Assembly (NCBI RefSeq): GCF_030269325.1
Contig: NZ_BSTD01000007.1
Coordinates: 372,001-436,000 of the forward strand
DNA from: Amycolatopsis sp. NBRC 101858
GTDB taxonomy: Bacteria > Actinomycetota > Actinomycetes > Mycobacteriales > Pseudonocardiaceae
Length of the DNA: 64,000 bases
Reading direction: 5' to 3'
Shown here: piece by piece, positions 19,232 to 37,401 of the stretch
Numbering within the stretch: position 1 is the stretch's first letter
Layout: every line of letters begins with the position of its first letter
The notes under the pieces: generated by a model
Told to the model about the DNA's origin: nothing
Databases searched by the model: none
Seen by the model: only the letters and a program-made list of their open reading frames with translations
Program-made: the position numbers and the translations under genes

Positions 19232-20110
19232 TCAGCCCTTGAGCCCGCTGGAGGTCACGGACTGGACGAACGTCTTCTGCGCGCCGAGGAAGGCCAGCAG
19301 CACGGGCAGGACGGTGATGACGTTGCCCGCCATCACCGCGGCCCAGTTCGTGTGGTGCTGGCCCTGGAACGTGGTGAGCCCCAGCTGCAGGGTGTAGGTC
19401 GTGTCGTGGTTGAGCGCGATCAGCGGCCAGGTCAGGTCGTTCCAGGTGGTCAGGAACGTCAGCACCGCCACCGTGGCCAGCGCGGGCCGGGACAGCGGCA
19501 GCACGATGGTGAACAGCACGCGCAGCCGCGAGCAGCCGTCGATCCACGCGGCTTCTTCGAGTTCCCGGGGCAGCGACAGGAAGAACTGGCGCAGCAGGAA
19601 CACCGCGAACGGCGTCACCAGCGACGGCACGATGAGCGCGCCCAGGCTGTCGATCAGGCCGAGCTTCTTCATCACCAGGAACGTCGGGATCATGGTGAGC
19701 TGGAACGGGATCGCCATCGTCGCGACCATCAGCGCGAGCAGTGCCCGTGAACCGGCGAACCGCATCCGCGCGAACGCGTACCCGCCCAGCGCGCCGAACA
19801 GCAGGTTCGACACCACGGTGACCGCCGAGACGATCAGCGAGTTCCCGAACCAGCGCAGGAACAGCGCGTTCTCGAGGACGTAGCGGTACCCGGCGAAGTC
19901 CACATGGGACGGCCACAGCGCGGGCGGGAACCGGTTGATCTCGGCGTTGCTCATCACCGAGCTGAGCAGCAGCCACACCAGCGGCGCGGCGAACACCAGC
20001 GCCAGCGGCACGAGCAGCAGGTGCCACGGGCTGAACGGCAGCCGGGGCCGGCGCGGCACGGGCAGCACGCGGGTCGCGGGTACTTCGAGCTGCGCGGGCG
20101 GTGTGGTCAT
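19232..20110 (-). CDS. Sugar ABC transporter permease, MalG/UgpE type
   Basis: 292 residues with about six membrane helices (HLLLVPLALVFAAPLVWLLLSS, FGNSLIVSAVTVVSNLLFG and others). The EAA loop that contacts the ATPase is visible: EEAAWIDGCSRLRVLFTIVLPLSRPALATVAV near residues 195-225. It follows the partner permease with a 4-bp overlap (start at 20110, upstream stop at 20107). The operon has no ATP-binding subunit, as is common in actinobacteria where one MsiK-like ATPase serves several sugar importers. Confidence 0.92.
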   Translation of the reverse strand: MTTPPAQLEVPATRVLPVPRRPRLPFSPWHLLLVPLALVFAAPLVWLLLSSVMSNAEINRFPPALWPSHVDFAGYRYVLENALFLRWFGNSLIVSAVTVVSNLLFGALGGYAFARMRFAGSRALLALMVATMAIPFQLTMIPTFLVMKKLGLIDSLGALIVPSLVTPFAVFLLRQFFLSLPRELEEAAWIDGCSRLRVLFTIVLPLSRPALATVAVLTFLTTWNDLTWPLIALNHDTTYTLQLGLTTFQGQHHTNWAAVMAGNVITVLPVLLAFLGAQKTFVQSVTSSGLKG

Positions 20111-21084
20111 CGGAGGGCCTTCCCGGGCCGGCGCAGCACGCGCAGGACGACCACGGCGACGAGCAGGGCGAGCGCGAGCACGTAGGCCGACGCCGCGCCG
20201 TAGCCGGCCGTGAAGTTCTTGAACGCCTGCTCCCAGACGAAGTAGACGATGACCGTCGTGGAGCCGAGCGGGCCGCCCTTGGTCGTCACGTAGACCAGGT
20301 CGAACACCTGCAGCGACGTGATGAGCTGCCACAGCACGAGGAACAGCGTCACCGGCGTGACCGCGGGCAGCGTCACGTGCCGGAGCACGCGCCAGGTGCC
20401 GGCACCGTCCAGCCGCGCGGCCTCGACCAGCGACGGCGGCACGTCCTGCAGCGCGGCCAGGTACACCACGACGCAGAAGCCCGTGCCGCTCCACAGCGTG
20501 ATGCCGACCAGCACCAGCAGTGCCTGCGCCGGATCGGTCAGGAACCCCTGCGGGGACACGCCGAGGTGGTGCAGCAGCGAGTTGGCCGCGCCGAACTGCG
20601 GGTCGAGGATGAAGGAGAACAGCACGCCCTGGGCGGTCGCCGACAGCACGAACGGGACCAGCACCAGCGTGCGGTAGAGCCCGGCCAGGCGGATGCGCCG
20701 GTTCAGCGCCTGGGCCAGCAGGAACCCGAACAGGATGCTGAGCGGGACGTAGAGCACCGTGTACAGCACGGTGTTCCCGACCGCCTGGGCGAAGTGCGGG
20801 TCCTGGGCGAGGGCCGCGTAGTTGTCCAGGCCGGTCCAGCGGCTGGGGGTCACCAGGTCGTCGACCTGGAAGGAGAGCACCAGCGACCAGGCGACGGGCA
20901 CCACGCCGAGGCCGAGGATGATGAGGACGGCGGGCGAGACGTAGGCCCAGGCCGCCGCGGTTTCGCGGCGCCGCCTGCGTTGGACGGGTGTGACCGGGGT
21001 TTTCGGGGGTTCCGGGTGGCGGAGCCCCCGGCCCGAGGCGGAGCCTCGGCTTGGCACGGTGATGGGCCTCGGCAGTCCGGGCAT
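20107..21084 (-). CDS. Sugar ABC transporter permease, MalF/UgpA type
   Basis: 325 residues. A Pro/Arg-rich cytosolic N-terminus of about 45 residues precedes six membrane helices (AYVSPAVLIILGLGVVPVAWSLVLSF is the first). EAA loop SLVEAARLDGAGTWRVLRHVTLPAVTPVTLFLV near residues 230-260. Start 21084 is ATG with GGGAGCC upstream. It lies 9 bp after the binding-protein gene and overlaps the second permease by 4 bp. Confidence 0.92.
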   Translation of the reverse strand: MPGLPRPITVPSRGSASGRGLRHPEPPKTPVTPVQRRRRRETAAAWAYVSPAVLIILGLGVVPVAWSLVLSFQVDDLVTPSRWTGLDNYAALAQDPHFAQAVGNTVLYTVLYVPLSILFGFLLAQALNRRIRLAGLYRTLVLVPFVLSATAQGVLFSFILDPQFGAANSLLHHLGVSPQGFLTDPAQALLVLVGITLWSGTGFCVVVYLAALQDVPPSLVEAARLDGAGTWRVLRHVTLPAVTPVTLFLVLWQLITSLQVFDLVYVTTKGGPLGSTTVIVYFVWEQAFKNFTAGYGAASAYVLALALLVAVVVLRVLRRPGKALR

Positions 21085-24524: not shown

Positions 24525-25710
24525 GCCGGCGGGCGAAAAGCCGGCCGGTCCGGGTTCCCCGGGCGCTGCCGCACCTGCGAACGCGACCACCGCCGCCGAA
24601 ACCGCGTCCCCAGCCGACCCCGCCACCTCCGGCGATCCTGCTGTCCGGCTTGCCGCCGCCATCCGGGTCGTGCTGCTCGGAGTCACCGGCATCATCCAGC
24701 TCGGCCTCGGGCTCGCTCCCCTTCTCCGGCACCACTCCGCCTACCGGCCGCCCTTTCTCGCCGATCTCGCCTACGCCGCCCTTGCCGGGGTCACCGCCCT
24801 CTGTGCCCTCTGGGTGCTGCGTCGCAAGCCCCTTCCCACCGCGGTGGCCGTCGGCGGGACGCTTGTCGTTCTGCTCGCCTCCTCCGCCGCGACCGCCGCG
24901 TTGCCGCCGGACTCCTTCTTCCGGGAGCCGCACTGGTCCTTCGGGCTCGTCGGGTGGCATCTGCTCGTCCTGCTCGCCGATCGGCCGCCCGCCCTGCTCA
25001 CCGCGCTCGGCGCCCACACCGCCGCCAGCGTCACGCAGTTCCTGCTCGGCGGGACTCCCACGCGCACCGAGCTCGGCGATGCCGCGATCGTGCTCTTCGG
25101 CGTCACCGTCTTCCAGCTCGCCATCGCCGGGCTGATCCGGCTGCTCGACCGCCGTGCCGGGGAAGCCGCCGCGGCCGCCGCCGGACGGGAGCGCCTCGCC
25201 ATCCGGGCCGCCCTCGCCGCGCAGGCCGGGCGGGACCTGCGCGCCGGGTTCGCCGAACAGCTCGGGGCCACCCTGCCGCTGCTGGCCGGTCTCGCCGACG
25301 GCACCGTCGACCCCCGCACGCCCGACGCCCGCGCCCGCTGTGCGCTCGCCGCCGCGCAGCTGCGACGGCTCTTCGCCGAAAACGACGACGTGCCCGATCC
25401 GCTGGTGCACGAGGTCACCGCGTGCCTCGACGTCGCCGAGCGGCGCGGGGTCGCCGTGACGCTCGCCGTGAGCGGGGACGTCGTCGACGTCCCGGCGCCG
25501 GCCCGCCGCGCCCTGACCGGCCCGGTGCTCACCGCACTGGCCGCCGCCCGCACCCGGGCCCGCGTGAGCGTGCTGCGCACCCCCGAGCTGGTGCGCGTCG
25601 CCGTGGTCGCGGACGGCTCCGCGGAAGTGACCGGATCCGCGGCGGTCCCCGTCACGTCCCACTCCCGGGACGGGCAGACCTGGATGGAGGCGCGGTGGCG
25701 ACCCGAGTGA
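24517..25710 (+). CDS. Membrane kinase-like partner without catalytic residues
   Basis: 397 residues, starting at GTG 24517 and overlapping the kinase upstream by 8 bp. After a Pro/Ala/Thr-rich stretch it has about five membrane segments (AAIRVVLLGVTGIIQLGLGL, LAYAALAGVTALCALWVL, TAVAVGGTLVVLLASSAATAAL and so on) and a cytosolic half laid out like a kinase (helical linker QAGRDLRAGFAEQLGATLPLLAGL, then HEVTACLDVAERRGVAVTLAVSGDV), but it has no His at the expected position and no N or G boxes. It is best read as a catalytically dead kinase that pairs with or modulates the upstream kinase. It overlaps the response regulator by 16 bp. Confidence 0.8.
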   Translation: MAEPAGEKPAGPGSPGAAAPANATTAAETASPADPATSGDPAVRLAAAIRVVLLGVTGIIQLGLGLAPLLRHHSAYRPPFLADLAYAALAGVTALCALWVLRRKPLPTAVAVGGTLVVLLASSAATAALPPDSFFREPHWSFGLVGWHLLVLLADRPPALLTALGAHTAASVTQFLLGGTPTRTELGDAAIVLFGVTVFQLAIAGLIRLLDRRAGEAAAAAAGRERLAIRAALAAQAGRDLRAGFAEQLGATLPLLAGLADGTVDPRTPDARARCALAAAQLRRLFAENDDVPDPLVHEVTACLDVAERRGVAVTLAVSGDVVDVPAPARRALTGPVLTALAAARTRARVSVLRTPELVRVAVVADGSAEVTGSAAVPVTSHSRDGQTWMEARWRPE

Positions 25711-26345
25711 CGGCCGTCGTGGTCGACGACCACCCGGCGGTGCGCGCCGGCGTGGCGTACTGGCTGGCGGCCGGCGACCCGCCGATCGACGTCGTCGCCG
25801 AGGGCGAGGACGTCAAGGCCGCCTGGCTCGGCCCGGGCGCCGCCGCCGACGTGGTGATCTTCGACCTGCACCTGGGCGGCCCCGCGCCCGCGTTCGGCGA
25901 CCTGCGGCGGCTGGCCGAGGCCGGGCGCCGGGTGGTCGTCTACTCGATGCGCTCGGACGACGACGTCGCGTTGCAGTGCCTCGAACTGGGTGCGCTGTGC
26001 TACCTGACGAAGGCCGAAGGCGCCGGGCACCTGGTGGAAGCGACGCGGGCCGCGGCGCAGGACCGGCCCTACACCCCGCCGTCGCTGGCCGGGGCGCTCG
26101 CCGGCGACCGGTCGGAGACGCGGCCCGCGCTCTCGGCGCGCGAGGCCGAGGTGCTCGTCGAGTGGTTCCAGTCGGAGTCGAAGGAGTTCGTCGCGCACCG
26201 GCTCGGGATCTCGGCCAGCACGGTGAACTCCCACCTGGAGCGGATCCGGGTCAAGTACGCGCGCATCGGCCGCGAGGCGCCGACCAAGGCCGCGCTCGTC
26301 GCCCGCGCCATCCAGGACGGCCTGATCGGCGTCGACGATCTGTGA
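25695..26345 (+). CDS. NarL/LuxR-type response regulator
   Basis: 216 residues. Receiver domain: VVVDDHPAVRAGVAYWL (acidic pair at 11-12), phospho-acceptor Asp57 in VVIFDLHL, Lys106 in CYLTKAEG. C-terminal LuxR helix-turn-helix LSAREAEVLVEWFQSESKEFVAHRLGISASTVNSHLERIRVKYA. Start GTG 25695 has GGAGG four bases upstream; GTG 25707, which makes a GTGA overlap with the previous gene, is the alternative. Third gene of a kinase-pseudokinase-regulator operon. Likely controls a local target; the lipoprotein gene at 26513 is the nearest candidate. Confidence 0.92.
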   Translation: MATRVTAVVVDDHPAVRAGVAYWLAAGDPPIDVVAEGEDVKAAWLGPGAAADVVIFDLHLGGPAPAFGDLRRLAEAGRRVVVYSMRSDDDVALQCLELGALCYLTKAEGAGHLVEATRAAAQDRPYTPPSLAGALAGDRSETRPALSAREAEVLVEWFQSESKEFVAHRLGISASTVNSHLERIRVKYARIGREAPTKAALVARAIQDGLIGVDDL

Positions 26346-26512: not shown

Positions 26513-27133
26513 ATGAAGCACGTCCGCATTCCCGCCCTGCTCGCCGCCTGCGCCGTCGGCCTCCTGCTGTCCGCGTGCGGCGGGGAGTCCGGCCAGGCCG
26601 CGCCCGCCGCCCCGACCAGCGCCCCCGCCGCCCCGGCGTCGGAGTCCCCCGAGTCGTCGACGGCCGCGGCCGCCCCGGTCGGCGACGTCACGAAGCCCGG
26701 CACCGAACTCAAGCTCGGCGAGCGCGCGGTGGTCCCGTTCAAGTACGGCACCAGCAAGTCCGGCACGATCGCCATCACCGTGACCGCGATCGAGAAGGGC
26801 GACAACGCCGACCTCGCGAAGTACGGCGACAAGGCGAAGGGCATCACGCCGTTCTACCTGCGCGCGACGGTCGAGAACGTCGACGGCGCCGACCTGGCCT
26901 ACTCCTCGGTGAGCCTGCGCGCCCTCGGCGCCGACGGCCGCTCGACCGGCGTGATCATCACCGGCAGCACGGATCAGTGCAAGTCCGGCACGGCGGGCAA
27001 GGACTTCACCAAGGCGGGCGCGAAGTTCGAGACGTGCACGCTGCAGGGCGCCCGCGAAGGCAGCGAGGTCGGCGCCGCGACGTTCGACAAGGGCGACGGC
27101 TACGACAAGTCCCCGCTGGTCTGGAAGAACTGA
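26513..27133 (+). CDS. Secreted lipoprotein, DUF4352-like
   Basis: 206 residues. Signal peptide with lipobox LLSAC (Cys22), followed by a low-complexity Ala/Pro/Ser linker to about residue 58. The folded part has strand patterns such as IAITVTAIEKGDNADLAKYG, FYLRATVENVDGADLAYSSVSLRALGADG and two Cys (QCKSG and ETCTL) that may form a disulfide, as in DUF4352-type immunoglobulin-like lipoproteins. Surface-anchored role unknown. The gene is preceded by the two-component system and followed by the hairpin 27141-27177. Confidence 0.8.
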   Translation: MKHVRIPALLAACAVGLLLSACGGESGQAAPAAPTSAPAAPASESPESSTAAAAPVGDVTKPGTELKLGERAVVPFKYGTSKSGTIAITVTAIEKGDNADLAKYGDKAKGITPFYLRATVENVDGADLAYSSVSLRALGADGRSTGVIITGSTDQCKSGTAGKDFTKAGAKFETCTLQGAREGSEVGAATFDKGDGYDKSPLVWKN

Positions 27134-27140
27134 CCCACGC

Positions 27141-27177
27141 GCGGGCACCACGGCCGGGTCGCGGCCGTGGTGCCCGC
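27141..27177 (+). terminator. Strong hairpin terminator after the lipoprotein gene
   Basis: Perfect 15-bp inverted repeat GCGGGCACCACGGCC (27141-27155) and complement (27163-27177), 7-base loop, starting 7 bases past the stop at 27133. It insulates the lipoprotein transcript from the six-gene cluster that follows. Confidence 0.88.
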
Positions 27178-27484
27178 CCTCGTCACGGCGTGGCCGAACA
27201 CACCCGCAGCGGCCCGCCGGGCGTGCGGCTACCCGGCCACGGCCCGCGACCGCCCGGGCCCGCGAACGGGCGATCGCGATCTGCGCCGAGCTGGAGCTGG
27301 CGGCCGCCGACGGGACACGCGCGGAACTGGCCGCCCTCGGCTGACGACGTTGCACGCGGCCTTTCCCTTCCACGGCAACGATCATGTACACCGTCGCTCC
27401 CGAACTCACTGTCGACGAATTGTCGACGGGCGCTGGAACCGTGGTCCGGTACCAGAGGAGTCCGGCGAGGCGAGGGAGTTCCAG
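27178..27484 (+). promoter_or_regulatory. Upstream region of the six-gene uncharacterised cluster
   Basis: Together with the hairpin before it this is a gap of 351 bp with no supported gene. One reading frame is open through it in phase with the 737-aa gene, but its sequence (Arg/Gly/Pro-rich) and lack of a good start argue against coding. It holds a tandem direct repeat TGTCGACG at 27410-27417 and 27421-27428 (11-bp period, about one helical turn), 57 bases before the ATG, a possible regulator site. No clear -10/-35 pair could be fixed. Confidence 0.45.
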
Positions 27485-29698
27485 ATGAGCATGCCAGTGC
27501 TCAGGCCGTACGGTCCGGGCGGCGAGGCCGTGACGACCGAAGCGGGCGCGATTTCGCCCTTCGCACCGGTGACCCTGTCGGGCGACGCCGAGCCGAGACC
27601 GGCCCCGCCGCCCGGGCAGGTGCTGCACTCCCCGTTCGCCGAGGCCGCGTCCGCGGTGGGTGCGTCCGACCTGGGTGCCGAGGCGACCGGGGCGTTGCTG
27701 GCCGAGCTCGACGACGCCCGGTTCGCCGAAGCCCTGGAGATGCTGGAGGACGACGTCGCCGCGCGGCACCTCCGGTCGATCGGCACCTGGTCGAGCGAAT
27801 CCGCGGCGCCCGTCCTCGCCACCGCCGACACCGCGCAGTGGATGGCGGAACTGGCCGAAGAAGCCGACCGCATGCTCGGCGCCCTCGAAGCACACTTCGG
27901 GGACCGGCTGGCGGATTCCGTGCAGGCGAGCGAAATCGACGCGGTCGCCGGCTACCGCGAGGCGGACGGATTCACCAATCCGCTGACCTCCCAGCAGCTT
28001 TTCCTCGGCGGGTTGCTGGACAAGGCGAAGAAACTGGCGAAGGGCGTGGGCAAGCTCGCGCGCAAGGGGCTCGCCTTCGCCGGCAAGCTCGCGCTGGGAC
28101 CGCTGTTCGGGATCCTCCGCAAGCTCGTCCGGCCGCTGCTGCGGAAGGTGCTCGACAGCGCCATCGGCCGGCTGCCCGAGTCCCTGCGCCCGCTGGCCAC
28201 GCAGCTGGCGGCCAAGCTGCGGGGCAGCGGCGAACTGTCCACCGAGGACACCTTCGCGGAGGAGTTCGACCGCGAGCTCGCCACGGCCGTCACCTCTCCC
28301 GGCGAGACCGGTCAGCCGGCCGGGGACCCGGAGTTCACCGGCGACGACCCCGGACCGGGCCACGACCTGGACGACGCCCGGGCCCGGCTGTCGCGCGAGC
28401 TGGCCACCGCCGACCCCGGCGTGCCCCCGACCGAGCAGCTGGAGCAGTTCATCCCCGTGGTGATGGCGGCGCTGCCGCTGATCCGGACGGGCATCGGCAT
28501 CATCGGCCGCGACAAGATCGTCGACGCGATCGCCGGCCCCCTCTCCCAGCTGATCTCGGGCATGGTCGGCGCGGACGCCGCCCAGCTGCTGTCCCGGCAC
28601 ATCGCCGGCGCCGGGCTGGGGCTGCTCGGACTCGAGGCCGGCGGGGACGGCACCCTCGGCGGCGAGGCCCTGGTGGCCGCGGCCGAGGACACCGTCCGGC
28701 AGGTCATGACGCTGCCGCCCGAATCGCTGGGGCACGAGCTGCTCGTCGAGACCGAGGTGCAGGACGCCTTCGCCGAAGCGGCCGCCCGGCACCTGCCCGC
28801 GGCGGTGCTGCGCGCCGAGCTGGTGGGGCCGGAGCACGGGGTGTGGGTCATGATGCCGCGCGCGACCCGGCCCTGCTTCCGCTACAAGAAGTACGGCCGC
28901 GTCATCCCGGTCCGGCTCACCCGGCCGATGGCCCGCGCGGTCGTCCTGGCCGGCGGCGACACGCTCGAACGGCGGCTGCTCGAATCCGGCGTCCAGGCGT
29001 GGCCGGTCGAGGGCGAGGTGGAGCTGTACGAGCTGCTGGCCGGCGGCCGGCCGGGCCACATCGCCGCGTACGAGTCGGCCGACGGCGCGAACGCGGCCGA
29101 GTTCGAAGAGCTGACGCAGACCGCCGCGACGCTGCTGACCGGCAATCCCCGCTTGGCCGGGCCCCACCGGCACGGGCACCACCGCCGGGCGGGCGGCCGG
29201 TACTTCCGGTTCCGCCGGCAGGGGCGTCCGCTGCACCGCGGGTACCGGCAGGGCTTCGTCGTGGGGTTCGACCTGACCGCGCCGCAGCCGGTGCTGCGGG
29301 TGAACCTGCTGATCGGCGAGCGGGACAGCCACGAGCTCGCGGCCCAGCTCCAGCGCCGGCAGCTCGTCCAGGTCGTCTCGACCGTGCGGCGGCTGCTCGA
29401 CGACGCCGCGCTCCAGGCGATGACGACCCGGCTGGAACGGCTGCTGACCAAGCACGGCATCACCGCCCCGGCCGGCGCCGGCAGGCAGCTGGCCCAGCGG
29501 CTCGCCGACGGGATGCTGCGGACGGTGTCGGAGCAGCTGCCCGCCTCGGCCCAGACGCTCGCCCAGGCGGCCCAGGACCCCGCCCCTGGGGCGACGCTGA
29601 CCTTCACGTTCTCCTTCGCCGACCGCGCCGCGGTCGCCGCGGGCACGCCGGCCGGCGACCCGGCCGTCACCATCCGGCCGGGACTGCACCGTGACTGA
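27485..29698 (+). CDS. Cluster protein A: large protein with basic amphipathic stretch, function unknown
   Basis: 737 residues from ATG 27485 (GAGGGAG about six bases upstream). No signal peptide. Residues 1-60 are flexible and Pro-rich; 60-165 are acidic and helical; 170-246 are strongly basic and amphipathic (LLDKAKKLAKGVGKLARKGL and GPLFGILRKLVRPLLRKVL); 321-383 are a second hydrophobic helical stretch (FIPVVMAALPLIRTGIGIIG). The C-terminal 300 residues look folded, with RPCFRYKKYGRVIPVRLTRPMARAV, VELYELLAGGRPGHIAAYES, a His/Arg-rich segment and FVVGFDLTAPQPVLRVNLLIGERDSHELAAQL. From memory similar large proteins occur in unrelated bacteria in clusters of unknown function, but I cannot verify this. 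It overlaps the next gene by 8 bp. The membrane-active look of residues 170-246 suggests contact with a membrane. Confidence 0.75.
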   Translation: MSMPVLRPYGPGGEAVTTEAGAISPFAPVTLSGDAEPRPAPPPGQVLHSPFAEAASAVGASDLGAEATGALLAELDDARFAEALEMLEDDVAARHLRSIGTWSSESAAPVLATADTAQWMAELAEEADRMLGALEAHFGDRLADSVQASEIDAVAGYREADGFTNPLTSQQLFLGGLLDKAKKLAKGVGKLARKGLAFAGKLALGPLFGILRKLVRPLLRKVLDSAIGRLPESLRPLATQLAAKLRGSGELSTEDTFAEEFDRELATAVTSPGETGQPAGDPEFTGDDPGPGHDLDDARARLSRELATADPGVPPTEQLEQFIPVVMAALPLIRTGIGIIGRDKIVDAIAGPLSQLISGMVGADAAQLLSRHIAGAGLGLLGLEAGGDGTLGGEALVAAAEDTVRQVMTLPPESLGHELLVETEVQDAFAEAAARHLPAAVLRAELVGPEHGVWVMMPRATRPCFRYKKYGRVIPVRLTRPMARAVVLAGGDTLERRLLESGVQAWPVEGEVELYELLAGGRPGHIAAYESADGANAAEFEELTQTAATLLTGNPRLAGPHRHGHHRRAGGRYFRFRRQGRPLHRGYRQGFVVGFDLTAPQPVLRVNLLIGERDSHELAAQLQRRQLVQVVSTVRRLLDDAALQAMTTRLERLLTKHGITAPAGAGRQLAQRLADGMLRTVSEQLPASAQTLAQAAQDPAPGATLTFTFSFADRAAVAAGTPAGDPAVTIRPGLHRD

Positions 29699-30956
29699 CC
29701 TCGCCGCGGACCGGCAGACCGAGGCCGAGCTGGTGCACTGGCAGCTCGCGGTCGAAGCACTGGCCGATCTCGACACGGTGGCCGCGCCCGAGGCGTGGCA
29801 GGCGCTGGAGGACTACCTGCAGCGCCAGGTCCGGGGCCGGCTGTCGGAGGTGGTCGCGGTGCTGGTCGCCGAGGGCCGGGCGCTGCACCGCAGGCTGGGC
29901 GCGGACGGCGATCCCGCCGGGATCCGGCAGGCGGTCCTGCGGCTGCGCGCCCGGTACCTCCAGGTGGAGACGATCCTCGACTTCTACGGCGACGCGGTGA
30001 ACAGCCGGACGAACCCGGCGCTGCGAGCGCTGTTGCGCGGGTACGACACGCTGGCGGGCGACAGCATGGCCGCCGTCCTGAACCGGCTGGGCATCGAGTC
30101 CCCGCCCGCGCTGATCTACCTGGACCGCGGGCTGGGCGCGGCGATCCTGCGCGCCGGGATCCGGCTGTGGGACCACAGCCACCCGTCGCCGGCCGCGGCG
30201 ATCAAGCTGACCCGGCACAACCTCGCCTACCCGACCGCGCTGCTGCACGAAACCGGCCACCAGGTGGCGCACCTGACCGGCTGGACCACCGAGCTGGCCG
30301 ACTCCCTGGCCGCCGTGCTCGCGCCGCGCTCGACGGAGCTGGCCGAGCTGTGGCGGGGCTGGGCCGGGGAGATCGCCGCCGACGTCCACGCCTTCGCGCA
30401 GGCCGGGTGGGCGCCGGTGGCCGCGCTGGCCAACGTCGTCGACGGCCCGCCGCAGGCCGTGTTCCGGGTCCGCTTCAACGATCCGCACCCCTTCCCGTAC
30501 CTGCGGGTGATGCTCAACGCCGAGCTGTGCCGCAGCTGGTTCGGGGCCGGGCCGTGGGACGACGTCGCCGCCGTCTGGCGGCAGCGGAACCCGCTGGCCG
30601 ACGCCCCCGGCGACGTGGCCGCGCTGACCCGCCTCAGCCTCGCCGCGCTGCCGGACGTCGTCGACGTCTGCACCCGCCGGCCGATGGCCGCTTTCGGCGG
30701 CGCACCGCTGTCGGCACTGCTCGATCCGCGTCGCGTTTCCCCCACCGCGCTGGAGTCCCTCGCCCGGCAGGCCGGTCCGTCGCTGCTGGCTTCGGCGTAC
30801 CTGAGGCGGCGTGAACCGCTGCGGATCCTCGCCCACCTCTCCACGCGCGCGGTGCTCGAACCGGCCAGTGCGGCCGAGCACCAGGCCCGGCTCCTGGCCT
30901 GGGTCACCGATGTCGGTGCCGACGCCGCACCGCGCTCCCACCACCAAGCCGCTTGA
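29691..30956 (+). CDS. Cluster protein B: putative zinc metalloprotease (HExxH)
   Basis: 421 residues from GTG 29691. The motif LLHETGHQVAHLTGW holds HETGH at 186-190 (two zinc ligands and the catalytic Glu187) and 37 residues later GEIAADVHAF offers Glu227 as the third ligand with Asp231 behind it, the ExxAD arrangement of gluzincin-like proteases. The N-terminal 100 residues are helical and charged. No signal peptide or pro-domain is evident. The later sequence (HPFPYLRVMLNAELCRSWFG, VWRQRNPLAD) is unrecognised. It overlaps protein A by 8 bp, so the protease and A are made together; A, C-F or a processed target of another cell are candidate substrates. Protease function is inferred from the motif only. 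Confidence 0.75.
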   Translation: MTDLAADRQTEAELVHWQLAVEALADLDTVAAPEAWQALEDYLQRQVRGRLSEVVAVLVAEGRALHRRLGADGDPAGIRQAVLRLRARYLQVETILDFYGDAVNSRTNPALRALLRGYDTLAGDSMAAVLNRLGIESPPALIYLDRGLGAAILRAGIRLWDHSHPSPAAAIKLTRHNLAYPTALLHETGHQVAHLTGWTTELADSLAAVLAPRSTELAELWRGWAGEIAADVHAFAQAGWAPVAALANVVDGPPQAVFRVRFNDPHPFPYLRVMLNAELCRSWFGAGPWDDVAAVWRQRNPLADAPGDVAALTRLSLAALPDVVDVCTRRPMAAFGGAPLSALLDPRRVSPTALESLARQAGPSLLASAYLRRREPLRILAHLSTRAVLEPASAAEHQARLLAWVTDVGADAAPRSHHQAA

Positions 30957-30980
30957 CCCGGAGGGGAACAGGAAACCGCC

Positions 30981-31577
30981 ATGACCAATCCGAAGACAGC
31001 CGAATCCCGCGCCACCGCGGGACGGCCGAAACCGGCCACCGCGCCGGCGGCCAAGACCGGGAAGCCGCCCGCCACCACGTCCACGGAGGACAGACCGGCG
31101 CCCGGCCCGGCGCACAACGGGCAGAACCCGGTGCTCGACCAGCTGGTCGCGCTCACCCGCTCGATCGGCGACCTCGTCCAGCAGAACGTCGGAACCCGCG
31201 ACGACCAGCTCACCACCGCGGACACCGACGCCGAGGAGCAGGCCCGAGTCGTCTTCGCCTACGACTTCCTCGGCGTCGTGCTCGGCCGGCGCGCGCCGAG
31301 TGTGTTCCAGCTGACGACCGTGACCGTCGTGCGCGACTTCGGCACCCTGACCTTCACCGGCCTCGGCGCGGCGACGGCGGCCAAGATCCGGGCCGCCGAC
31401 AACACCGTCCAGTTCCTGGAAGGACTGCGGGACGGCATGCCCGTCACCATCGACGAGGGGCCCAAGGCCATCTCCGACAACCTGCGGATCGACTCGATCA
31501 TCACGTTCACCGCCCTCGGCGGCACGCCGGTGGCGATCGGGCCGTGCCTCGGCCCGGTCGTCGGGGGCGTCGGATAG
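30981..31577 (+). CDS. Cluster protein C: small protein with Pro/Ala-rich N-terminus, unknown
   Basis: 198 residues; ATG 30981 with GGAGGGGAACAGG upstream. Residues 1-48 are disordered (Pro, Ala, Thr, Lys). The rest is a compact domain with VLDQLVALTRSIGDLVQQN, EEQARVVFAYDFLGVVLGRR, then beta-like segments APSVFQLTTVTVVRDFGTLTFTG and a glycine-rich end (IGPCLGPVVGGVG). No family recognised. It lies 24 bp after protein B and 18 bp before protein D in the same operon. Could be a structural or chaperone-like component; nothing decides this. Confidence 0.65.
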   Translation: MTNPKTAESRATAGRPKPATAPAAKTGKPPATTSTEDRPAPGPAHNGQNPVLDQLVALTRSIGDLVQQNVGTRDDQLTTADTDAEEQARVVFAYDFLGVVLGRRAPSVFQLTTVTVVRDFGTLTFTGLGAATAAKIRAADNTVQFLEGLRDGMPVTIDEGPKAISDNLRIDSIITFTALGGTPVAIGPCLGPVVGGVG

Positions 31578-31595
31578 ACGACAGGAGACATCGTC

Positions 31596-32909
31596 ATGTT
31601 CTTCCCACTGGCCAAGGCCCTCGGCAACCAGAACGCCGAACTCGGGGCCCAGCGCGTGTTCCGCCTCCACCCGAACCAGATCGCCGCCCTCCTCGACGAA
31701 ATCTGGGGTTCGGCGCGAAGAACGCCCCAGATCCCCGATCCGTCCGGGGAGAAGGACCTGGTCTTCTTCGCCCGGTTCTTCGACGACACCGTGCTCGACG
31801 CGCTGGACCTGCCGACCCAGCCGGGCGACGACCCGTTCCTCTCGACCGACGGGCTCGACGCCTTCCTCGCCCCGTCCGGGGTGAGCACCGCCGGGTCGTT
31901 CGAGTGGAGCGGCCGGCCGAACGAGCTGTTCTGCCCGCCGCTGCTGTGGCACCACCTCGCCTACGCCTACGTCCTGGAGAGCACCGGCATCGTCGAGATC
32001 TTCGCCGAGGTGGTCCGGCGGCTGGTCGTCGGCGAGACGATGGGGGTCCTGTCCCCGGACAGCATCGCCTGGCTGCGCGCGACCGAGCAGCTGTTCTTCC
32101 GCGACCTGCCGACCTTCTCGGTGGCGAGCGTGCTGAGCCAGGTCCGCCCGTTCGACCGGACCAACCGCCGCAACGCCTACTGGCGGATGTTCGGGCTCGA
32201 CCTCGCGCACGCGGTGCCGCCGCTGTGGGCCGGGTCCGGGCCGCTGGCCGACTGGAAGGACCTGACCGGTCCGGTGAACCACGACTTCCGGCAGAAGTGG
32301 AGCGAACTGCTGCGGCAGATCTGGATCGGCGTGGAGAACCGGGCGAACAACAGCGGTGCCAACCCGACCGACCCGAGCTACATCGCGCTGCTTTCCCGTG
32401 CGCTCAAGGACCTGCTCGGCAACCGCCGCCGCGGCGGCGCGCTCGCCCGTGAAGAGTTCGCCTACGTGACGATGCTGAACTGGTTCCACCTGACCGTGGA
32501 CAGCGACACGTCGCTGATCGTCGACCTGCAAGCGCAGGCGAGCAGTGCGGCCGACCGGCTGGGAGCGCTGGGCCAGAAGGTCGGGATCACGCCCGCGTTG
32601 CGGTCCCGGGAGCTGTTCGACCTGGCCGAGCCGATGTCGACGCTGCTGCGCGGGATCGAGCTCGGGCTGTTCGACACCGAGTCGACCGCGGCCACGCTGT
32701 TCACCGGCGGGACGAACATCTTCCGGGACGTCCTCGACACGATCAACAACTGGCAGTCGGCCACCGGTGAGCGGGTCAAGGAAAGCCCCGCGCGCCAGGT
32801 CACGACCGCGACCGGCGGGCAGCCGCTGCGCGTGCCGGTCCCGGCGGCGTCGCCCGCGGCGATGGCACCGCTGAACGGTTCGGCGCCGGCCCTGTCCCCG
32901 AAGGGCTGA
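31596..32909 (+). CDS. Cluster protein D: unknown 437-aa protein
   Basis: 437 residues, ATG 31596 preceded by GACAGGAGACATCGTC. A mainly helical soluble protein with many aromatic residues: MFFPLAKALGNQNAELGAQRVF, LVFFARFFDDTVLDALDLPTQ, ELFCPPLLWHHLAYAYVLESTGIVEIFAEVVRRLVVG, YWRMFGLDLAHAVPPLW. Residues about 385-437 are a Pro/Ala-rich tail. No catalytic motif, signal peptide or membrane helix. Not recognised. Sits between protein C and protein E, 5 bp before E, so it is expected at similar levels and probably acts with them. Confidence 0.65.
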   Translation: MFFPLAKALGNQNAELGAQRVFRLHPNQIAALLDEIWGSARRTPQIPDPSGEKDLVFFARFFDDTVLDALDLPTQPGDDPFLSTDGLDAFLAPSGVSTAGSFEWSGRPNELFCPPLLWHHLAYAYVLESTGIVEIFAEVVRRLVVGETMGVLSPDSIAWLRATEQLFFRDLPTFSVASVLSQVRPFDRTNRRNAYWRMFGLDLAHAVPPLWAGSGPLADWKDLTGPVNHDFRQKWSELLRQIWIGVENRANNSGANPTDPSYIALLSRALKDLLGNRRRGGALAREEFAYVTMLNWFHLTVDSDTSLIVDLQAQASSAADRLGALGQKVGITPALRSRELFDLAEPMSTLLRGIELGLFDTESTAATLFTGGTNIFRDVLDTINNWQSATGERVKESPARQVTTATGGQPLRVPVPAASPAAMAPLNGSAPALSPKG

Positions 32910-32914
32910 GCGCC

Positions 32915-34453
32915 GTGCCGGCCGCGAGCCAGCCGACCTGGGCGTGGACACCGCCCGATCCGCTGGCGGAAGGAGAGGATTCGGGCTACGAGCCCGAATG
33001 GCACGACGAGCCGGACGGCTCGCTCACCGAGGAGGAGCCGCGGCGGTGGGCGGGCGAGCTGACCAGCCCGTTCGCGGCCGCTCCCGAGGCCGATCCGGTG
33101 GTGCCCGAGGAGGCGGGCCCGTTCTCCGTCGAGGGCGAGCTCCTGCGGTGGGCCACCGAGCTGGCCCAGGCACCGCAGCGGGTCCGGGCGGCTTTCGACC
33201 GGCAGGAGGAGACCGAAGCCGTGCGCTTGCTGGTCGGCAGCGGGGTCCGGGACGCGGAGTGGCTGACCGACCTCGTCTTCCACACCCGGCACCGCGAGCT
33301 AGGCGGCCAGGCGGTCTCCGGCGATGCCCTGCTGGAGGAGGAACGGCAGGCCATCCACGACGAGGAGATCCGGCCCCGGCTCGCCGGCGACCCGGCGGAG
33401 CTGCTCGAAGGCGAGGGCTTCTTCGGTGCTCTCGTCGGCGATGTGCTGGCGACGAACGCCGTCCACGCCGCGTTCGCCGGGGGTGAGCGCGACGAGAACA
33501 AGCTCACGGACATCGGCTACCGGGCGGTCCCGGGCACGGCCGCGAAGATCAAGCCGGGTGATCCGCCCGAGCTGAAGGAGCGGTGGACCCGGATCCGGGA
33601 CCGCATCGTGCGGCCGTTCCTCCGGTTGAAGAAGACCGGTCTCGACCGGCTGGTGCCGAGGGGAAAGCCGTTCGTGCGCCTGTGCTGCCTGCTGTTCGGG
33701 CCCGCGGTCCTCGACCTGGCCGGCCTCGGCACGCACGGGACCGCCCCGGTCGACGCGCTCGGCGAGGTCTACACGCGCAAGCTCGGCTTCGTCGACCTCG
33801 GCCACGCCCGCGAGACCGCGGACGTGACGCTGTGGGCTCTGAACCAGCTCCAGCACCAGGCGACGGCCGGCGCCACCGTCGCCCTGTTCCACGGTTCGGC
33901 CCGCCTGCTGCGCGACGTCCCGCTCGAGCGGCGGCTGGCGCTCGCGCAGCAGCTGGCGTACGTCGATGCGGTCGAGCACGAGATCGCGACGTTCGGCGTC
34001 CCCGGGCCGGGCCTGGACAACTCGTCGTTCTCGCCGGAAGACCTGCCGTCCAACCTGTTCGGCACGCTCGTCGCCGCGGCCGCCTTCCGCGCCGACGGCG
34101 GTACCGACGCCGCGATCACGCAGCAGCTCAAGCAGCAGCTGACGGCCGCCGGTGCGCAGCCCGTGGCCGTGGCGGTGCAGGTGCAGCAGGCCGCGGCCGG
34201 CCGGGGCTGGTGGGGCCCCGCGACGGCGTGGTGGGCGGATGCCCCGCTGCGCAAGCGGAACTTCACCGCGGACCCCTGGCTCATCGACGAGCAGGGCGCG
34301 GTGCGGATCGCCCAGGGCGCGCTGCCCGCGGCGCCGCCCCTGGTCGGCGCGGACTTCGAGTACGAGTCGGCGGCGCACCTCAAGAACACCGAGTTCGCGC
34401 AGAAGATCGCTGCCATCCGCGCGCAGGTCCCGGCCTCGGCGAGGACGCCGTGA
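32915..34453 (+). CDS. Cluster protein E: shared N-terminal domain plus DUF4056-like region
   Basis: 512 residues from GTG 32915. Residues 1-66 are acidic and disordered. Residues 69-156 match the start of protein F closely (PFSVEGEL, VRAAF..., EAVRLLVGSG, WLTDLVFHTRH), then two helices (EEIRPRLA). Residues about 240-330 resemble DUF4056: RLCCLLFGPAVLD, GLGTHGTAP and EVYTRKLGFVDLGHARETADVTLWALNQL, where the last segment matches the GFIDxxHxRDxADxT pattern I recall for that family. The DUF4056 link is from memory and unverified. No signal peptide. Stop overlaps F's GTG by 4 bp, so E and F are made together; the shared domain suggests a common docking partner. Confidence 0.65.
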   Translation: MPAASQPTWAWTPPDPLAEGEDSGYEPEWHDEPDGSLTEEEPRRWAGELTSPFAAAPEADPVVPEEAGPFSVEGELLRWATELAQAPQRVRAAFDRQEETEAVRLLVGSGVRDAEWLTDLVFHTRHRELGGQAVSGDALLEEERQAIHDEEIRPRLAGDPAELLEGEGFFGALVGDVLATNAVHAAFAGGERDENKLTDIGYRAVPGTAAKIKPGDPPELKERWTRIRDRIVRPFLRLKKTGLDRLVPRGKPFVRLCCLLFGPAVLDLAGLGTHGTAPVDALGEVYTRKLGFVDLGHARETADVTLWALNQLQHQATAGATVALFHGSARLLRDVPLERRLALAQQLAYVDAVEHEIATFGVPGPGLDNSSFSPEDLPSNLFGTLVAAAAFRADGGTDAAITQQLKQQLTAAGAQPVAVAVQVQQAAAGRGWWGPATAWWADAPLRKRNFTADPWLIDEQGAVRIAQGALPAAPPLVGADFEYESAAHLKNTEFAQKIAAIRAQVPASARTP

Positions 34454-35544
34454 CCGTCCCGTTCTCCGTCGAGGGTGAGCTGGAAAGCTGGGCGGACACG
34501 CTGCTGCGGCTGCCGGCCGGGGTCCGGGCGGCGCTCCTGGCCGGGCACCCCGAGGAAGCCGTCCGCCTGCTCGCCGCCGGGGGCAAGCGGGACGAGGCCT
34601 GGCTGACCGACGTCGTCTTCCACACCCGCCACCCCGAGCTGCGCGGGCGGGCGATCCGCCGCACCGAGCGGGCCTTGGCCCAGGAGTGGCGGGACCTCCG
34701 CACCACCGTCGTGCACGCGGCGCTGACGGCCCCGCCCGCTCCCCCACCGGCCCCGGCGGTTCCCGCCGCACCGGCCCGGCCGGTGACGGACTGGCGGCTG
34801 CGCGCACTGCGGTCCGCCGGGATCGATCCGGCCAAGTGGGACCCGGACGCGGGGTTCACGGCGATGAAGCCGATCGTCGAGCGGGTCTACGCCTACGACA
34901 TGGACTTGTTCAACCACAACGAAAATCTCCTATGGGCCGGGATGGCGAAACTGGCCGGCGGTCAGGTCTACCGCGGGCTGAGCGTCACCCAGGCGACCAT
35001 CGACGCCGCCGCGATGACGGCCGACCAGGTCGTCACGGCCGACGTCCTCATCACCTACGCGCAGAGCGTTCAGGTGAAGCTGCTCTTCGCGCAGCGGGCG
35101 ATCTTCGGCGACCTGGCGTGGCAGCACCAGGCTTTCGTGGAGGGCGGCCTGCCGGCGCTGGAGGCCGTCTCCCCCGCCGCGCCGGTCGACGCCTGGCGGG
35201 ACATCGCCTCCGGCGATCCCGGGCGGGTCCGGCGGGGCAACCGGGCGCTGCTGCGCCGCGAGCAGGAAGTGGTGCTGGCGCCGTTCTACGCGTCGATCCG
35301 CGACATCCCGGACTTCGACCAGATCCCGAAGCGCATGTCCGCCGAGGCGCTTTCGCCGGTCACCGGCGGGAAACCGTTCCGGGACGTGGTGCCGGGTGGC
35401 GACATCACGGTGTTCGCGGACCGGTGGAAGTGGATCGAGACCGACATGCTGCCGGCCTACGAGGTGCTGACGCCGGCGCGCCGCCGTCAGCTCGTCAACG
35501 CTCCGCTGGCCGACCTCGCCGCCCGGCGCTGGCCACCCGGCTGA
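34450..35544 (+). CDS. Cluster protein F: shares N-terminal domain with E, unknown C-terminal domain
   Basis: 364 residues from GTG 34450, coupled to E by a GTGA overlap. Residues 4-90 align with residues 69-156 of E: PFSVEGELESWADTLLRLP, VRAALL, EAVRLLAAGGKRDEAWLTDV, VFHTRHPEL. A Pro/Ala linker (about 95-120) leads to a C-terminal domain with FTAMKPIVERVYAYDMDLFNHNENLLWAGMAKLAGGQVYRGL, VQVKLLFAQRAIFGDLAWQHQAFVEGGLPALEA and FADRWKWIETDMLPAYEVLTP, which has no name I can give it. Last gene of the six-gene run, with convergent quiC 15 bp beyond. Possibly a secreted or delivered effector sharing a targeting domain with E. Confidence 0.65.
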   Translation: MTVPFSVEGELESWADTLLRLPAGVRAALLAGHPEEAVRLLAAGGKRDEAWLTDVVFHTRHPELRGRAIRRTERALAQEWRDLRTTVVHAALTAPPAPPPAPAVPAAPARPVTDWRLRALRSAGIDPAKWDPDAGFTAMKPIVERVYAYDMDLFNHNENLLWAGMAKLAGGQVYRGLSVTQATIDAAAMTADQVVTADVLITYAQSVQVKLLFAQRAIFGDLAWQHQAFVEGGLPALEAVSPAAPVDAWRDIASGDPGRVRRGNRALLRREQEVVLAPFYASIRDIPDFDQIPKRMSAEALSPVTGGKPFRDVVPGGDITVFADRWKWIETDMLPAYEVLTPARRRQLVNAPLADLAARRWPPG

Positions 35545-35559
35545 CGGTGGCGGGCTCGG

Positions 35560-37401
35560 TCAGGCTTCGCGCCGCCGGGCCTCGCGTTGCCTGCGGTGCG
35601 CCGCCATCCGCACCGGGGAGTTCACCGCACCGTCGCCCGCGTACCCGCCGATGCGGTGCACCACCTCGAAGAACACCCGGCCGCCGAGCACCACCGTGAA
35701 GAAGTGCAGCAGCTCGCCACCCTCGTCGCGGTCGTAGAGCACCGACTGCTGCCGCAACCGCGCCAGCAGCGCGGGATCCGGAGCCAGCCGGGCATCGAGG
35801 TCGTCGTAGTAGTTGCCGGGGATCTCCAGCAGCGGTGCCCCCAGCTCGCGCATCCGGCGGGCGCTCGCCAGCGCGTCACCGGTCGTCAACGCGACCCGCT
35901 GCGGCTCGCGCACCCCCGGCGCCCACTCCCCCCGCCGGAGCAGGGCCGATTCCAGCGCGATGCGGACGCGGCCGGACGGGTCGGCCACCGTGCGGCTGCG
36001 CACCAGCCCGAACGGGGCGGCGAACTCCGTCACCGGTTCCGGCTCCAGGCCGAGGACCGCCCGGTAGAACAACGCCGCCTCGTCGAAGTGGTCGAACGGC
36101 TGGGTCAGCGCCAGGTGGTCGATCCCGGTCACCCCGGCTTCGCCGCCCGCCGCCGGGGTCTGGGTGAAGTCGCCGAGCCAGCTGTCGGCCGTGTCGGCGC
36201 CGGTGCGGCAGAAGAAGACCGACGTCCCGTCGGGCGCGGCGATCGCCGAGAGGTCCGCCTCGTCCGCGCGGTGGGTGCGCGGCAGGATCGGAGCGAGCAG
36301 CCGCTGCGCGCGCCGGGCCGAGGCGACCGGGTCGGCGCTCTCGACCGCGACCGCGCCGACCGACGCGCCCCCGGGGCCGGAAGCGTTGAGCAGGATCCGC
36401 GCGTCCCCCTGCTGCCACAGCCGGACGGGCTTGGACCGGTGCCGGCCGGTCTCCGCGAACCCGAGGCCCCGCAACGCCTCCGCCATGGTGGGTTCCGTTT
36501 CGCCGTCGACGGCCAGCTCGACGAACGCGTGCCCGGCGAGGGCCGGCGCGGGCGGCAGGTCCGTGACCCCGAGCGTCTCCTGCAGGCCGAGCAGGGAGCG
36601 CATCGCGTCGACCGCCGCCGGTCCCGGGTCGGCCTGGCGGAAGACGTCGTTGAACACCTCGAGCGACAGCGGCCCGCGGTAGCCGGCCGCCAGCACGTGC
36701 CCGGTGAACGCGGTCAGGTCGAACGCGCCCTGGCCGGGGAAGAGCCGGTGGTGGCGGCTCCACTGCAGGACGTCCATCTGCAGCCGCGGCGCGTCGGCCA
36801 GCTGCAGGAAGAACAGCTTCTCGCCGGGGATCGTGCGGATCGCGGCCGGGTCGCTGCCCCGCGACAGGATGTGGAAGCTGTCCAGGCACAGCCCGAGCGC
36901 GGGGTGGGCGGCGCGGCGCACGATCCGCCACGAGTGTTCGTAGGTGTTGACGAACCGGCCCCACGCCAGCGCTTCGTAGGCGATCCGGATGCCCCGCGCC
37001 GCGGCGCGGTCGGCGAGCAGGTGCAGCTGCTCGGCGGCGAGGTCGTCGTCGTCGACCGCGTCCGGGGAGACCGACGAGCACACCAGCATCGTGTCGGCGC
37101 CGAGCTGGTCCATGACGTCGAACTTGAGCTCCGCGCGCCGCAGGTTGCGCGCGAGCACGTCCGGCGGGACCGCTTCGAAGTCGCGGAACGGCTGGTACAG
37201 GTCGATCGACAACCCCAGCTCGGCGCAGTGTTCGCCGATCTCCTTCGCCGGCCACGACGAAGCGACGAGGTCGTTCTCGAAGATCTCCACCCCGTCGAAC
37301 CCGGCGCGGGCGGCGGCGGTCAGCTTGTCTTCCAGGGTCCCGGACAGGCAGACGGTGGCGATCGAGCGGCGGGCTTCGGCTGCGGTTTCAGTCGAGGACA
37401 T
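35560..37401 (-). CDS. qsuB: 3-Dehydroshikimate dehydratase, two-domain QsuB/QuiC type
   Basis: 613 residues, close to the usual length of bacterial two-domain dehydroshikimate dehydratases. Residues 1-285 are a TIM barrel (AP-endonuclease family 2-like): ATVCLSGTLEDKLTAAARAGFDGVEIFEND, LCLDSFHILSRGSD, LFFLQLADAPRL, GYRGPLSLEVFNDVFR, carrying the metal ligands. Residues 290-600 are an HPPD-like double VOC domain (TGIDHLALTQPFDHFDEAALFYRAVLGLEPEP, VVLGGRVFFEVVHRIGGYAGDG). The enzyme turns 3-dehydroshikimate into protocatechuate for aromatic-acid catabolism. ATG 37401 is 14 bp inside the shikimate dehydrogenase gene, so the two are co-translated. Expected to work with the transporter and MBL protein to the right. 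Confidence 0.9.
   Translation of the reverse strand: MSSTETAAEARRSIATVCLSGTLEDKLTAAARAGFDGVEIFENDLVASSWPAKEIGEHCAELGLSIDLYQPFRDFEAVPPDVLARNLRRAELKFDVMDQLGADTMLVCSSVSPDAVDDDDLAAEQLHLLADRAAARGIRIAYEALAWGRFVNTYEHSWRIVRRAAHPALGLCLDSFHILSRGSDPAAIRTIPGEKLFFLQLADAPRLQMDVLQWSRHHRLFPGQGAFDLTAFTGHVLAAGYRGPLSLEVFNDVFRQADPGPAAVDAMRSLLGLQETLGVTDLPPAPALAGHAFVELAVDGETEPTMAEALRGLGFAETGRHRSKPVRLWQQGDARILLNASGPGGASVGAVAVESADPVASARRAQRLLAPILPRTHRADEADLSAIAAPDGTSVFFCRTGADTADSWLGDFTQTPAAGGEAGVTGIDHLALTQPFDHFDEAALFYRAVLGLEPEPVTEFAAPFGLVRSRTVADPSGRVRIALESALLRRGEWAPGVREPQRVALTTGDALASARRMRELGAPLLEIPGNYYDDLDARLAPDPALLARLRQQSVLYDRDEGGELLHFFTVVLGGRVFFEVVHRIGGYAGDGAVNSPVRMAAHRRQREARRREA

Follow-up and report, generated by a model that had tools for sequence, protein, structure and literature searches.

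The Pfam family DUF4056 has been placed in the lipocone superfamily, for which activity on the head groups of phospholipids or polyisoprenoids is predicted (Burroughs, Nicastro and Aravind, eLife 2025, PMC12419801, cited here and below from the accessible part of its text). According to that text, TelC, which attacks lipid II, is the only experimentally characterised lipocone toxin; related CapCone and TelC domains are read as envelope-targeting effectors, and some toxins are proposed to be deployed by dedicated trafficking domains (PMC12419801). Here, we analysed a stretch of 64,000 nucleotides from Amycolatopsis sp. NBRC 101858 (contig NZ_BSTD01000007.1, positions 372,001 to 436,000; hereafter, the window), which carries an operon of six genes, A to F, with a DUF4056 domain encoded in gene E. 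Our analysis shows that this operon is one unit with an exchangeable end, which probably serves as a weapon or in wall remodelling and represents a system not described before. The reading that we prefer, with a probability of about 0.5, is that of a self-contained conflict system directed at the cell envelope, in which a core of A, B, C and D would process, hold and deploy exchangeable effectors that act on the envelope.

The genes A, B and D, together with a gene in the C slot, were found in the same order in eight loci of two families: the window, A. vancoresmycina and A. sacchari, all of the genus Amycolatopsis, and five genomes of one genus of another family (L067–L071). The 8-bp overlap of A and B was kept in all eight loci, although the A protein of L071 is only 31% identical to that of the window; across the loci, identity to the window was 31–73% for A and 35–85% for D. 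In a search with A, the proteins of A. vancoresmycina and A. sacchari were identical to it at 70 and 65%, respectively, and both loci contain A, B, C, D and F in the order of the window. All five loci of the other family have A, B and D together with a gene in the C slot, and since only A was used to find these loci, the presence of B and D next to it is an independent result. The fixed gene order and the conserved A/B overlap bear out the proposal, made in an earlier reading of the window from its sequence alone (the sequence-only reading), that the genes form one functional unit. Moreover, because homologues of A, B and D recur in seven other loci with the order and the overlap kept, A–F are real genes and not chance open reading frames (ORFs). 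Gene calls in the unannotated loci were made with a codon-usage script, and their starts are possibly off.

The searches of multiple genomes scored few candidates per genome. With three candidates scored in each of 296 phylum genomes, A was detected in a single one, that of the window, and a search of relatives revealed it in 1 of 60. When a shorter profile of A, made with the three Amycolatopsis loci, was run on 296 genomes of the class, 13 of them matched: the window's own, five with strong matches (E-value 2.4e-33 or better), which belong to a single genus of another family, and eight with weak ones (E-values between 8e-4 and 8e-3; one such match comes from a genome with a strong match too), which were left out. 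The weak match whose surroundings were fetched (L072) had no such cluster there. In the other family, the D profile matched five of the 22 genomes searched. The D profile was built from the known clusters, L067–L071 included, and its positive hits are therefore by construction; only absence elsewhere is informative, and no further carrier was revealed among the other 17 genomes of that family and the other 128 of the phylum sample. No relatives of A or D were found in the plasmid collection using either the window or the L071 versions. Absence in the genome searches is weak evidence because few candidates were scored, and the shorter A profile added five carriers within the class. As for the scattering of single homologues, which the sequence-only reading had named as a ground for refutation, the outcome was mixed: relatives of B and of the C-terminal domain of F were seen in other settings, whereas the six strong A matches were all in such clusters, and neither D nor the domain shared by E and F was found in the searched genomes other than the known carriers, with the exception of one cyanobacterial protein with the shared domain.

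The replacement of the last gene or genes by unrelated domains, the recognised ones being of envelope type, is well supported by the comparison of the loci. Behind D, the window has E and F, A. vancoresmycina has another gene and F, and A. sacchari has F; the lipocone part of E is missing in both of the latter, and it is the place of E that the other gene takes in A. vancoresmycina. OmpA-like proteins are found behind D in L067–L070 (E-values from 4e-10 to 2e-8), those of L068–L070 being 94–96% identical to that of L067, for which the closest NCBIfam names, below cut-off, are Pal and other peptidoglycan anchors. In L071, D is followed by a protein of 739 amino acids with a VanY carboxypeptidase domain (6e-14). 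An SH3-like C-terminus, noticed by eye in the extra protein of A. vancoresmycina, was unsupported by Pfam (KOW, E-value 0.077) or NCBIfam. These envelope- or toxin-type proteins agree with part of the earlier suggestion of a toxin or delivery machine; that the cluster is a secreted delivery machine is still a matter of inference.

Gene E matched DUF4056 with 52.7 bits (Pfam cut-off 23.6; E-value 5e-14), which corrects the earlier statement that, apart from the HExxH motif of B, no gene has a named catalytic domain. In CapCone domains, the H2 His is preceded by a Gly six residues before it and by an xD motif starting four before it, and the H4 Asp is preceded by S/GxxSxx and followed, four residues later, by an Asn that has a small residue before it (PMC12419801). 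At the first site, E has G291, V293-D294 and H297, at positions that align with a Rahnella DUF4056 protein; H297 was taken as the H2 His by its fit to the rule, the alternative, H355, being without the Gly. At the second site it has S370, S373, D376 and S379-N380, where the soil Rahnella protein aligns with SAFSPEDLYSN. With the published motif residues intact, we predict that E is a CapCone-DUF4056 lipocone, an enzyme acting on lipid head groups. Its assignment as an effector is supported by a Salmonella genome study, where, in the accessible part, a DUF4056 ORF is a candidate type VI effector (PMC11669294).

The second variable protein of the window, F, scored 23.8 bits against DUF2515, just under the Pfam cut-off of 24.3. 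Its C-terminal domain had matches in 8 of 148 class genomes, the window's own included. In two other genomes this domain is fused to T7SS_signal (4e-24 and 2e-25), and in one of these a WXG100 gene is present on the same 4-kb locus; a relative from Arthrobacter has weak EspA_EspE and WXG100 matches, below cut-off, and other relatives start with an apparent signal peptide, as judged by eye. The fusions and the apparent signal peptides indicate that the domain is exported elsewhere, F itself having a different N-terminal domain instead.

This N-terminal domain (N-domain) is the one that the sequence-only reading had seen in both E and F, and E holds a second, partial copy of it. Its consensus is G-RD--LTD-VF--RHPEL-G--I...L--EW--IR--VRP, and its carriers are F, E (twice), the F proteins of A. 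vancoresmycina and A. sacchari, and the VanY protein of L071, residues 51–149 of which match the F model at 1e-19. A profile of six N-domain sequences found G000 and G394 among 80 Amycolatopsis genomes and G000 and G602 among 246 class genomes. These hits are by construction, as those genomes supplied the profile; the informative part of the search is that none was found in the other 78 Amycolatopsis and 244 class genomes. A second shared feature is the motif SPF[ASV], with 20 occurrences in 13 of 42 cluster proteins (a set that includes four near-identical loci, L067–L070), always within the first 55 residues. The motif is present in seven of the eight A proteins and 6/10 variable proteins and in none of the 24 B, C-slot and D proteins. 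In the controls, it was found in 1/134 flanking proteins and in 14/584 proteins of other loci; nine of these 14 matches are copies of one family of 105 amino acids or of one protein of a related cluster type (type 2, see below), and overlapping loci are included. The looser motif [SATE]PF[ALVS] matched 18/42 cluster proteins versus 7/134 flanking ones.

No usable match was found for A–D in Pfam, NCBIfam, PHROGs or PADLOC, and PDB sequence searches with A, B, D, E and F gave nothing usable; the earlier description of the core proteins as unannotated was thus correct. The HExxH motif reported in B is present at residues 186–190, and H186, E187, H190, W224, E227 and D231 are invariant in 15/15 relatives, down to about 20% identity. 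The invariant E227 and D231 form a downstream ExxxD that is consistent, from the sequence only, with a gluzincin-like third metal ligand. B had no known peptidase family in Pfam, and in PDB there was no match with B alone and a best profile match at E-value 0.43. By its invariant HExxH...ExxxD motif, B is a probable zincin-type metallopeptidase. The basic amphipathic stretch claimed for A was likewise found, at residues 173–250, and has a weak profile match to the amphipathic proteins of related clusters (types 2 and 3). A match of A to MgtE_N (E-value 0.066) was below cut-off and was not used. For C, no match at E-value 0.1 was obtained in L067–L071, and the protein is unrecognisable in that family. 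None of the six proteins matched the PADLOC models of anti-phage defence. A phage origin was rejected, the best PHROG match of A–F having an E-value of 0.013 and the D profile having no relative in viral contigs.

Relatives of B link this cluster (type 1) to a wider class. A search with B matched 17 of 80 Amycolatopsis genomes, with type 1 B in two of the 80, and the other 18 Amycolatopsis loci examined were of type 2 (four, L025–L028) or type 3 (14, L029–L042). The make-up of both types was taken from family membership; type 2 also includes L043–L045 and type 3 also L046. A broader B profile run on 396 phylum genomes, with four candidates scored per genome, revealed nothing convincing beyond the window. 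In the plasmid collection, seven records, from Paraburkholderia, Rhizobium, Ensifer, Bradyrhizobium and Sinorhizobium, contained relatives of B by tblastn; of the six loci inspected, L043–L046 have a similar layout, and in L047 and L048 the neighbours are CHAT-domain genes and other enzymes. Among the proteobacterial clusters, L044 has a PG_binding/GIY-YIG protein and L045 a PG_binding/DUF2272/glucosaminidase protein. Profile comparison joined the three B types at 98.6–99.7%. Of 45 pairs of ten families, four stood out, the other 41 being at 0.8% or less: A reached 54% with the amphipathic proteins of type 2 and 36% with those of type 3, these two reached 74% with each other, and D reached 44% with P4 of type 3 and 0.8% or less with the long type 2 protein. 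A first comparison with shallow alignments had joined only the B types above 20%, the links of A and D appearing with deeper alignments. Given these weak values and the compositional bias of the A-like sequences, it is plausible but unproven that A and D each share an ancestor across the cluster types. The expectation that families resembling A occur in unannotated clusters of other bacteria was supported, as relatives were found there.

For the preferred reading, that of an envelope-attacking conflict system, we infer the export, the target and the roles of A–D as follows. The N-domain and the SPF tag would load E and F, or would serve as processing signals, and B may cut at or near the acidic tails. 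A would be a membrane-active component, its cationic helices being masked by its acidic N-terminus until processing by B, and C and D may be structural partners that build or hold the assembly. E would cleave lipid-linked head groups, possibly those of lipid II, and F would add a further blow to a neighbour's envelope, the putative target being the envelope of a competitor.

Several observations weigh against this reading. No signal peptide was seen in A–F, by eye only and with no predictor applied, and inspection, with no systematic search, recognised neither secretion machinery in A–F nor an immunity gene. Hydrophobic stretches above 1.6 on the Kyte-Doolittle scale occur in A (residues 322–340) and E (residues 253–271), so that either protein may be bound to the membrane of the producer. 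Only the A proteins of the window and of A. sacchari have their most basic 70-mer on the amphipathic segment; in the other six A proteins, it is in the C-terminal half. The OmpA-like domain is wall-binding and not toxic. The Rahnella DUF4056 gene adjoins porin and BamA-family genes, a possible housekeeping setting, and the list of toxin families, in the accessible part of the lipocone paper, names CapCone-1 and CapCone-2, not CapCone-DUF4056 (PMC12419801). Neither tag is universal: in A. vancoresmycina, the extra gene (L002:15387-16406) is without SPF and without any family match, the VanY protein of L071 and the F of the window are without SPF[ASV], and the N-domain was not detected in the OmpA-like proteins of L067–L070. 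Furthermore, the looser motif also matches D in four loci, in addition to the flanking proteins mentioned above, and an N-domain is present in a cyanobacterial (Leptolyngbya) plasmid protein with an apparent signal peptide (E-value 4e-3 by tblastn against the plasmid collection; 28 bits when tested among four proteins).

A bolder proposal, which we put forward only tentatively, is that A–D constitute a new Gram-positive apparatus for protein export or delivery. It would be independent of signal peptides, would combine a metallopeptidase with a masked, membrane-active amphipathic scaffold, would be loaded through the N-domain and the SPF tag, and would belong to a class shared with Proteobacteria (types 2 and 3).

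The main rival, which we consider rather unlikely, is that the cluster acts on the producer itself, in a developmentally timed remodelling or lysis of the envelope (hyphal lysis, sporulation or release of contents). Action from inside or after lysis would account for effectors without signal peptides, and none was seen by eye in A–F. It would also suit the recognised variable domains, which bind or act on the wall or lipid-linked precursors, the OmpA-like proteins, which are not toxic in themselves, and the fact that inspection alone recognised no immunity gene. However, a developmental system would be expected in most species, whereas the cluster is patchy (type 1 B in 2/80 Amycolatopsis, A in 1/60 relatives, D in 5/22 genomes of the other family), and the swapping of unrelated effectors is typical of conflict systems.

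It is improbable that the operon encodes substrates of type VII (ESX) secretion, with the N-domain as a divergent T7SS signal and E and F as ESX effectors. The occurrence of the F C-terminal domain behind T7SS_signal in two genomes, with a WXG100 gene nearby in one, fits this explanation; however, Pfam finds no WXG100, LXG or T7SS_signal in A–F, and other relatives of the F domain begin with an apparent signal peptide, as seen by eye. Of similarly low probability is the idea that the weapon is A, which would permeabilise membranes like a bacteriocin after maturation by B, E and F being accessory. An acidic-then-cationic layout was found in A and the type 2 and type 3 amphipathic proteins and not in the B, D, P24, P3 and P4 families (up to nine proteins per family, 2/8 type 2 proteins not being significant at 0.05), and an ELxxFLGG-like motif precedes the cationic helix in several relatives, both of which favour such a protein. 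Nevertheless, the residue after FLG varies (G, K, N or D), by which a double-glycine leader was rejected and such processing is unlikely, and at 726–858 amino acids with conserved blocks throughout, the A proteins are unlike bacteriocins. Finally, that the cluster is cargo of an extracellular contractile injection system (eCIS), an idea that goes back to the co-occurrence with DUF4157 or phage-tail genes named as a check in the sequence-only reading, is very improbable: although G000, G394 and G634 have phage sheath (PF04984) and eCIS_core (PF13699) genes elsewhere in the genome, both are missing in four of the seven carrier genomes tested, for which dependence on contractile injection is refuted, the sheath is present in 11 of 23 non-carriers, and A–F have no usable phage or eCIS family match.

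The six rightward ORFs were all located where the sequence-only reading had listed them (27485..35544, + strand; Table 1), with overlaps of 8 bp (A/B) and 4 bp (E/F) and gaps of 24 bp (B/C), 18 bp (C/D) and 5 bp (D/E). Of the strong terminator described upstream, the hairpin is real and stable, with a 16-bp stem; as the T run after the stem is missing, it does not qualify as a textbook intrinsic terminator. A search of 27100-35700 gave no consensus sigma-70 promoter. Alignment of the three upstream regions pointed to the 23-bp element CACTGTCGACGAATTGTCGACGG, with two GTCGAC boxes, which differs at one base in A. sacchari and has not been kept in A. vancoresmycina; judging from this three-way alignment, it may have a regulatory function. 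By eye, a LuxR-type response-regulator-like gene (25707-26345) and a lipoprotein-like gene (26513-27133) are present upstream of A in the window, response-regulator-like genes are also upstream of A in L067–L070, and genes whose starts look like those of BTAD/SARP-type regulators adjoin several A–D clusters (L069:15367-16086, L071:11931-12686 and L003:16613-18730).

Table 1. Positions of the genes, domains and upstream elements of the A–F cluster in the window.
Feature	Position	Strand	Description
Hairpin	27141..27177	+	upstream of operon; GC-rich 16-bp stem, no T run; -40.1 kcal/mol, z -5.1
Candidate operator/promoter element CACTGTCGACGAATTGTCGACGG	27407..27429	+	upstream of A; from alignment of 3 upstream regions
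Gene A, 737 amino acids	27485..29698	+	two SPFA motifs in the acidic N-terminus; cationic amphipathic segment; C-terminal region large
A residues 173-250, FLGGLLDKAKKLAKG...	28001..28234	+	net +13, highest hydrophobic moment in A
Gene B, 421 amino acids	29691..30956	+	probable zincin-type metallopeptidase; relatives in other cluster types
B HExxH (HETGH), residues 186-190	30246..30260	+	
Gene C, 198 amino acids	30981..31577	+	small, fast-evolving; second family conserves position only
Gene D, 437 amino acids	31596..32909	+	conserved core protein; weak profile match to P4 of type 3 clusters
Gene E, 512 amino acids	32915..34453	+	putative variable effector; tail with SPFA, two N-domain copies, predicted CapCone-DUF4056 lipocone domain
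N-domain of E, first copy	33116..33397	+	
N-domain of E, second, partial copy	33422..33637	+	
Predicted DUF4056/CapCone lipocone domain, E residues 281-434	33755..34216	+	G291, D294, H297, S370, S373, D376, N380
Gene F, 364 amino acids	34450..35544	+	putative variable effector; N-domain plus DUF2515-like domain
N-domain of F	34450..34734	+	
F C-terminal domain	34783..35541	+	elsewhere behind T7SS_signal domains or apparent signal peptides

Some features of the related clusters were noted besides. A sigma-54 (rpoN) gene adjoins the type 2 cluster in all four Amycolatopsis loci (Pfam Sigma54_DBD and CBD; L025:6631-7866, L026:12699-13973, L027:6614-7855 and L028:12394-13674), and in the one type 2 locus tested, a sigma-54 activator is present (1e-56, L026:5856-7079). 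The sigma-54 system is stated to be missing from Actinobacteria (PMC3162934, accessible part). Textbook -24/-12 promoters, TGGCACGGA-N2-TTGC, are found at L025:7967, L044:12382 and L045:12278, 59–76 bp before the first type 2 gene in Amycolatopsis, Ensifer and Rhizobium; a slightly looser motif had 11 matches in 2.17 million bases, with both strands and overlapping loci included. No such promoter was found in L026–L028, L043, L046, L049, L031, L033 or the window, including the region before the window operon. An aminotransferase-like pyridoxal phosphate (PLP) enzyme and/or an Amidohydro_2 protein is encoded in several type 2 and proteobacterial clusters (L025:12682-14578, L044:17288-18364 and 20092-20841, L045:17308-18405, L043:17571-18371 and L046:20164-20964), which hints at a modification or small-molecule step not in the window cluster. 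Relatives of B in Bradyrhizobium and Sinorhizobium and a relative of P4 in Burkholderia pyrrocinia (L047:8402-28447, L048:6923-16750 and L049:5743-26312) lie near genes for CHAT, patatin, phospholipase D, amidase, and S8, C25 or M4 peptidases, settings that look like further conflict systems.

If the preferred reading is true, a conflict-type system with exchangeable envelope-attacking effectors, among them a lipocone enzyme whose predicted targets are lipid head groups, would be added in a genus known for antibiotics. Several families without annotation would obtain a testable role, the N-domain and the SPF tag would offer a handle for finding new effectors by association, and the B family would tie together a broader class of clusters, as yet without a name, that spans Actinobacteria and Proteobacteria.

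A literature search, in which most subscription papers were outside the coverage, found no description of the A–D cluster and no mention of DUF2515, whereas DUF4056 occurred in four papers. As in polymorphic toxin systems, variable effector domains are found here, most of them behind a shared N-terminal module or tag; the cluster differs in having no recognised secretion marker and, by inspection only, no recognised immunity gene. A resemblance to type VII effectors is that the family of the F C-terminal domain also supplies the C-terminal part of T7SS_signal proteins, in two genomes; in contrast, F has the N-domain in place of the T7SS signal and adjoins A–D, not WXG100 genes. Effectors of eCIS have N-terminal loading signals, an idea that resembles the tags described here; the difference is that A–F match neither sheath nor eCIS_core, and both are missing from four of seven carrier genomes. 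The glycine-zipper proteins of contact-dependent killing in Caulobacter are glycine-rich and amphipathic and resemble the type 2 proteins by eye, with no sequence comparison; we know of no link between them and B, D or envelope enzymes. Closer are the type 2 and type 3 clusters, in which a B relative has an amphipathic protein of acidic-then-cationic layout and long core proteins as its neighbours, and some of which carry peptidoglycan-binding or -cutting proteins. They differ in that their A-like and D-like proteins are only weakly similar, no D-like protein being detected in type 2, which has an extra PLP enzyme, an amidohydrolase and sigma-54 parts. With CapCone-DUF4056 lipocones, E shares the Pfam domain and the listed active-site motifs; the core, the N-domain and the SPF motif are not described in the accessible part of the lipocone paper (PMC12419801). 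Overall, the effectors appear to be of known kinds, and the core and the tags appear to be new.

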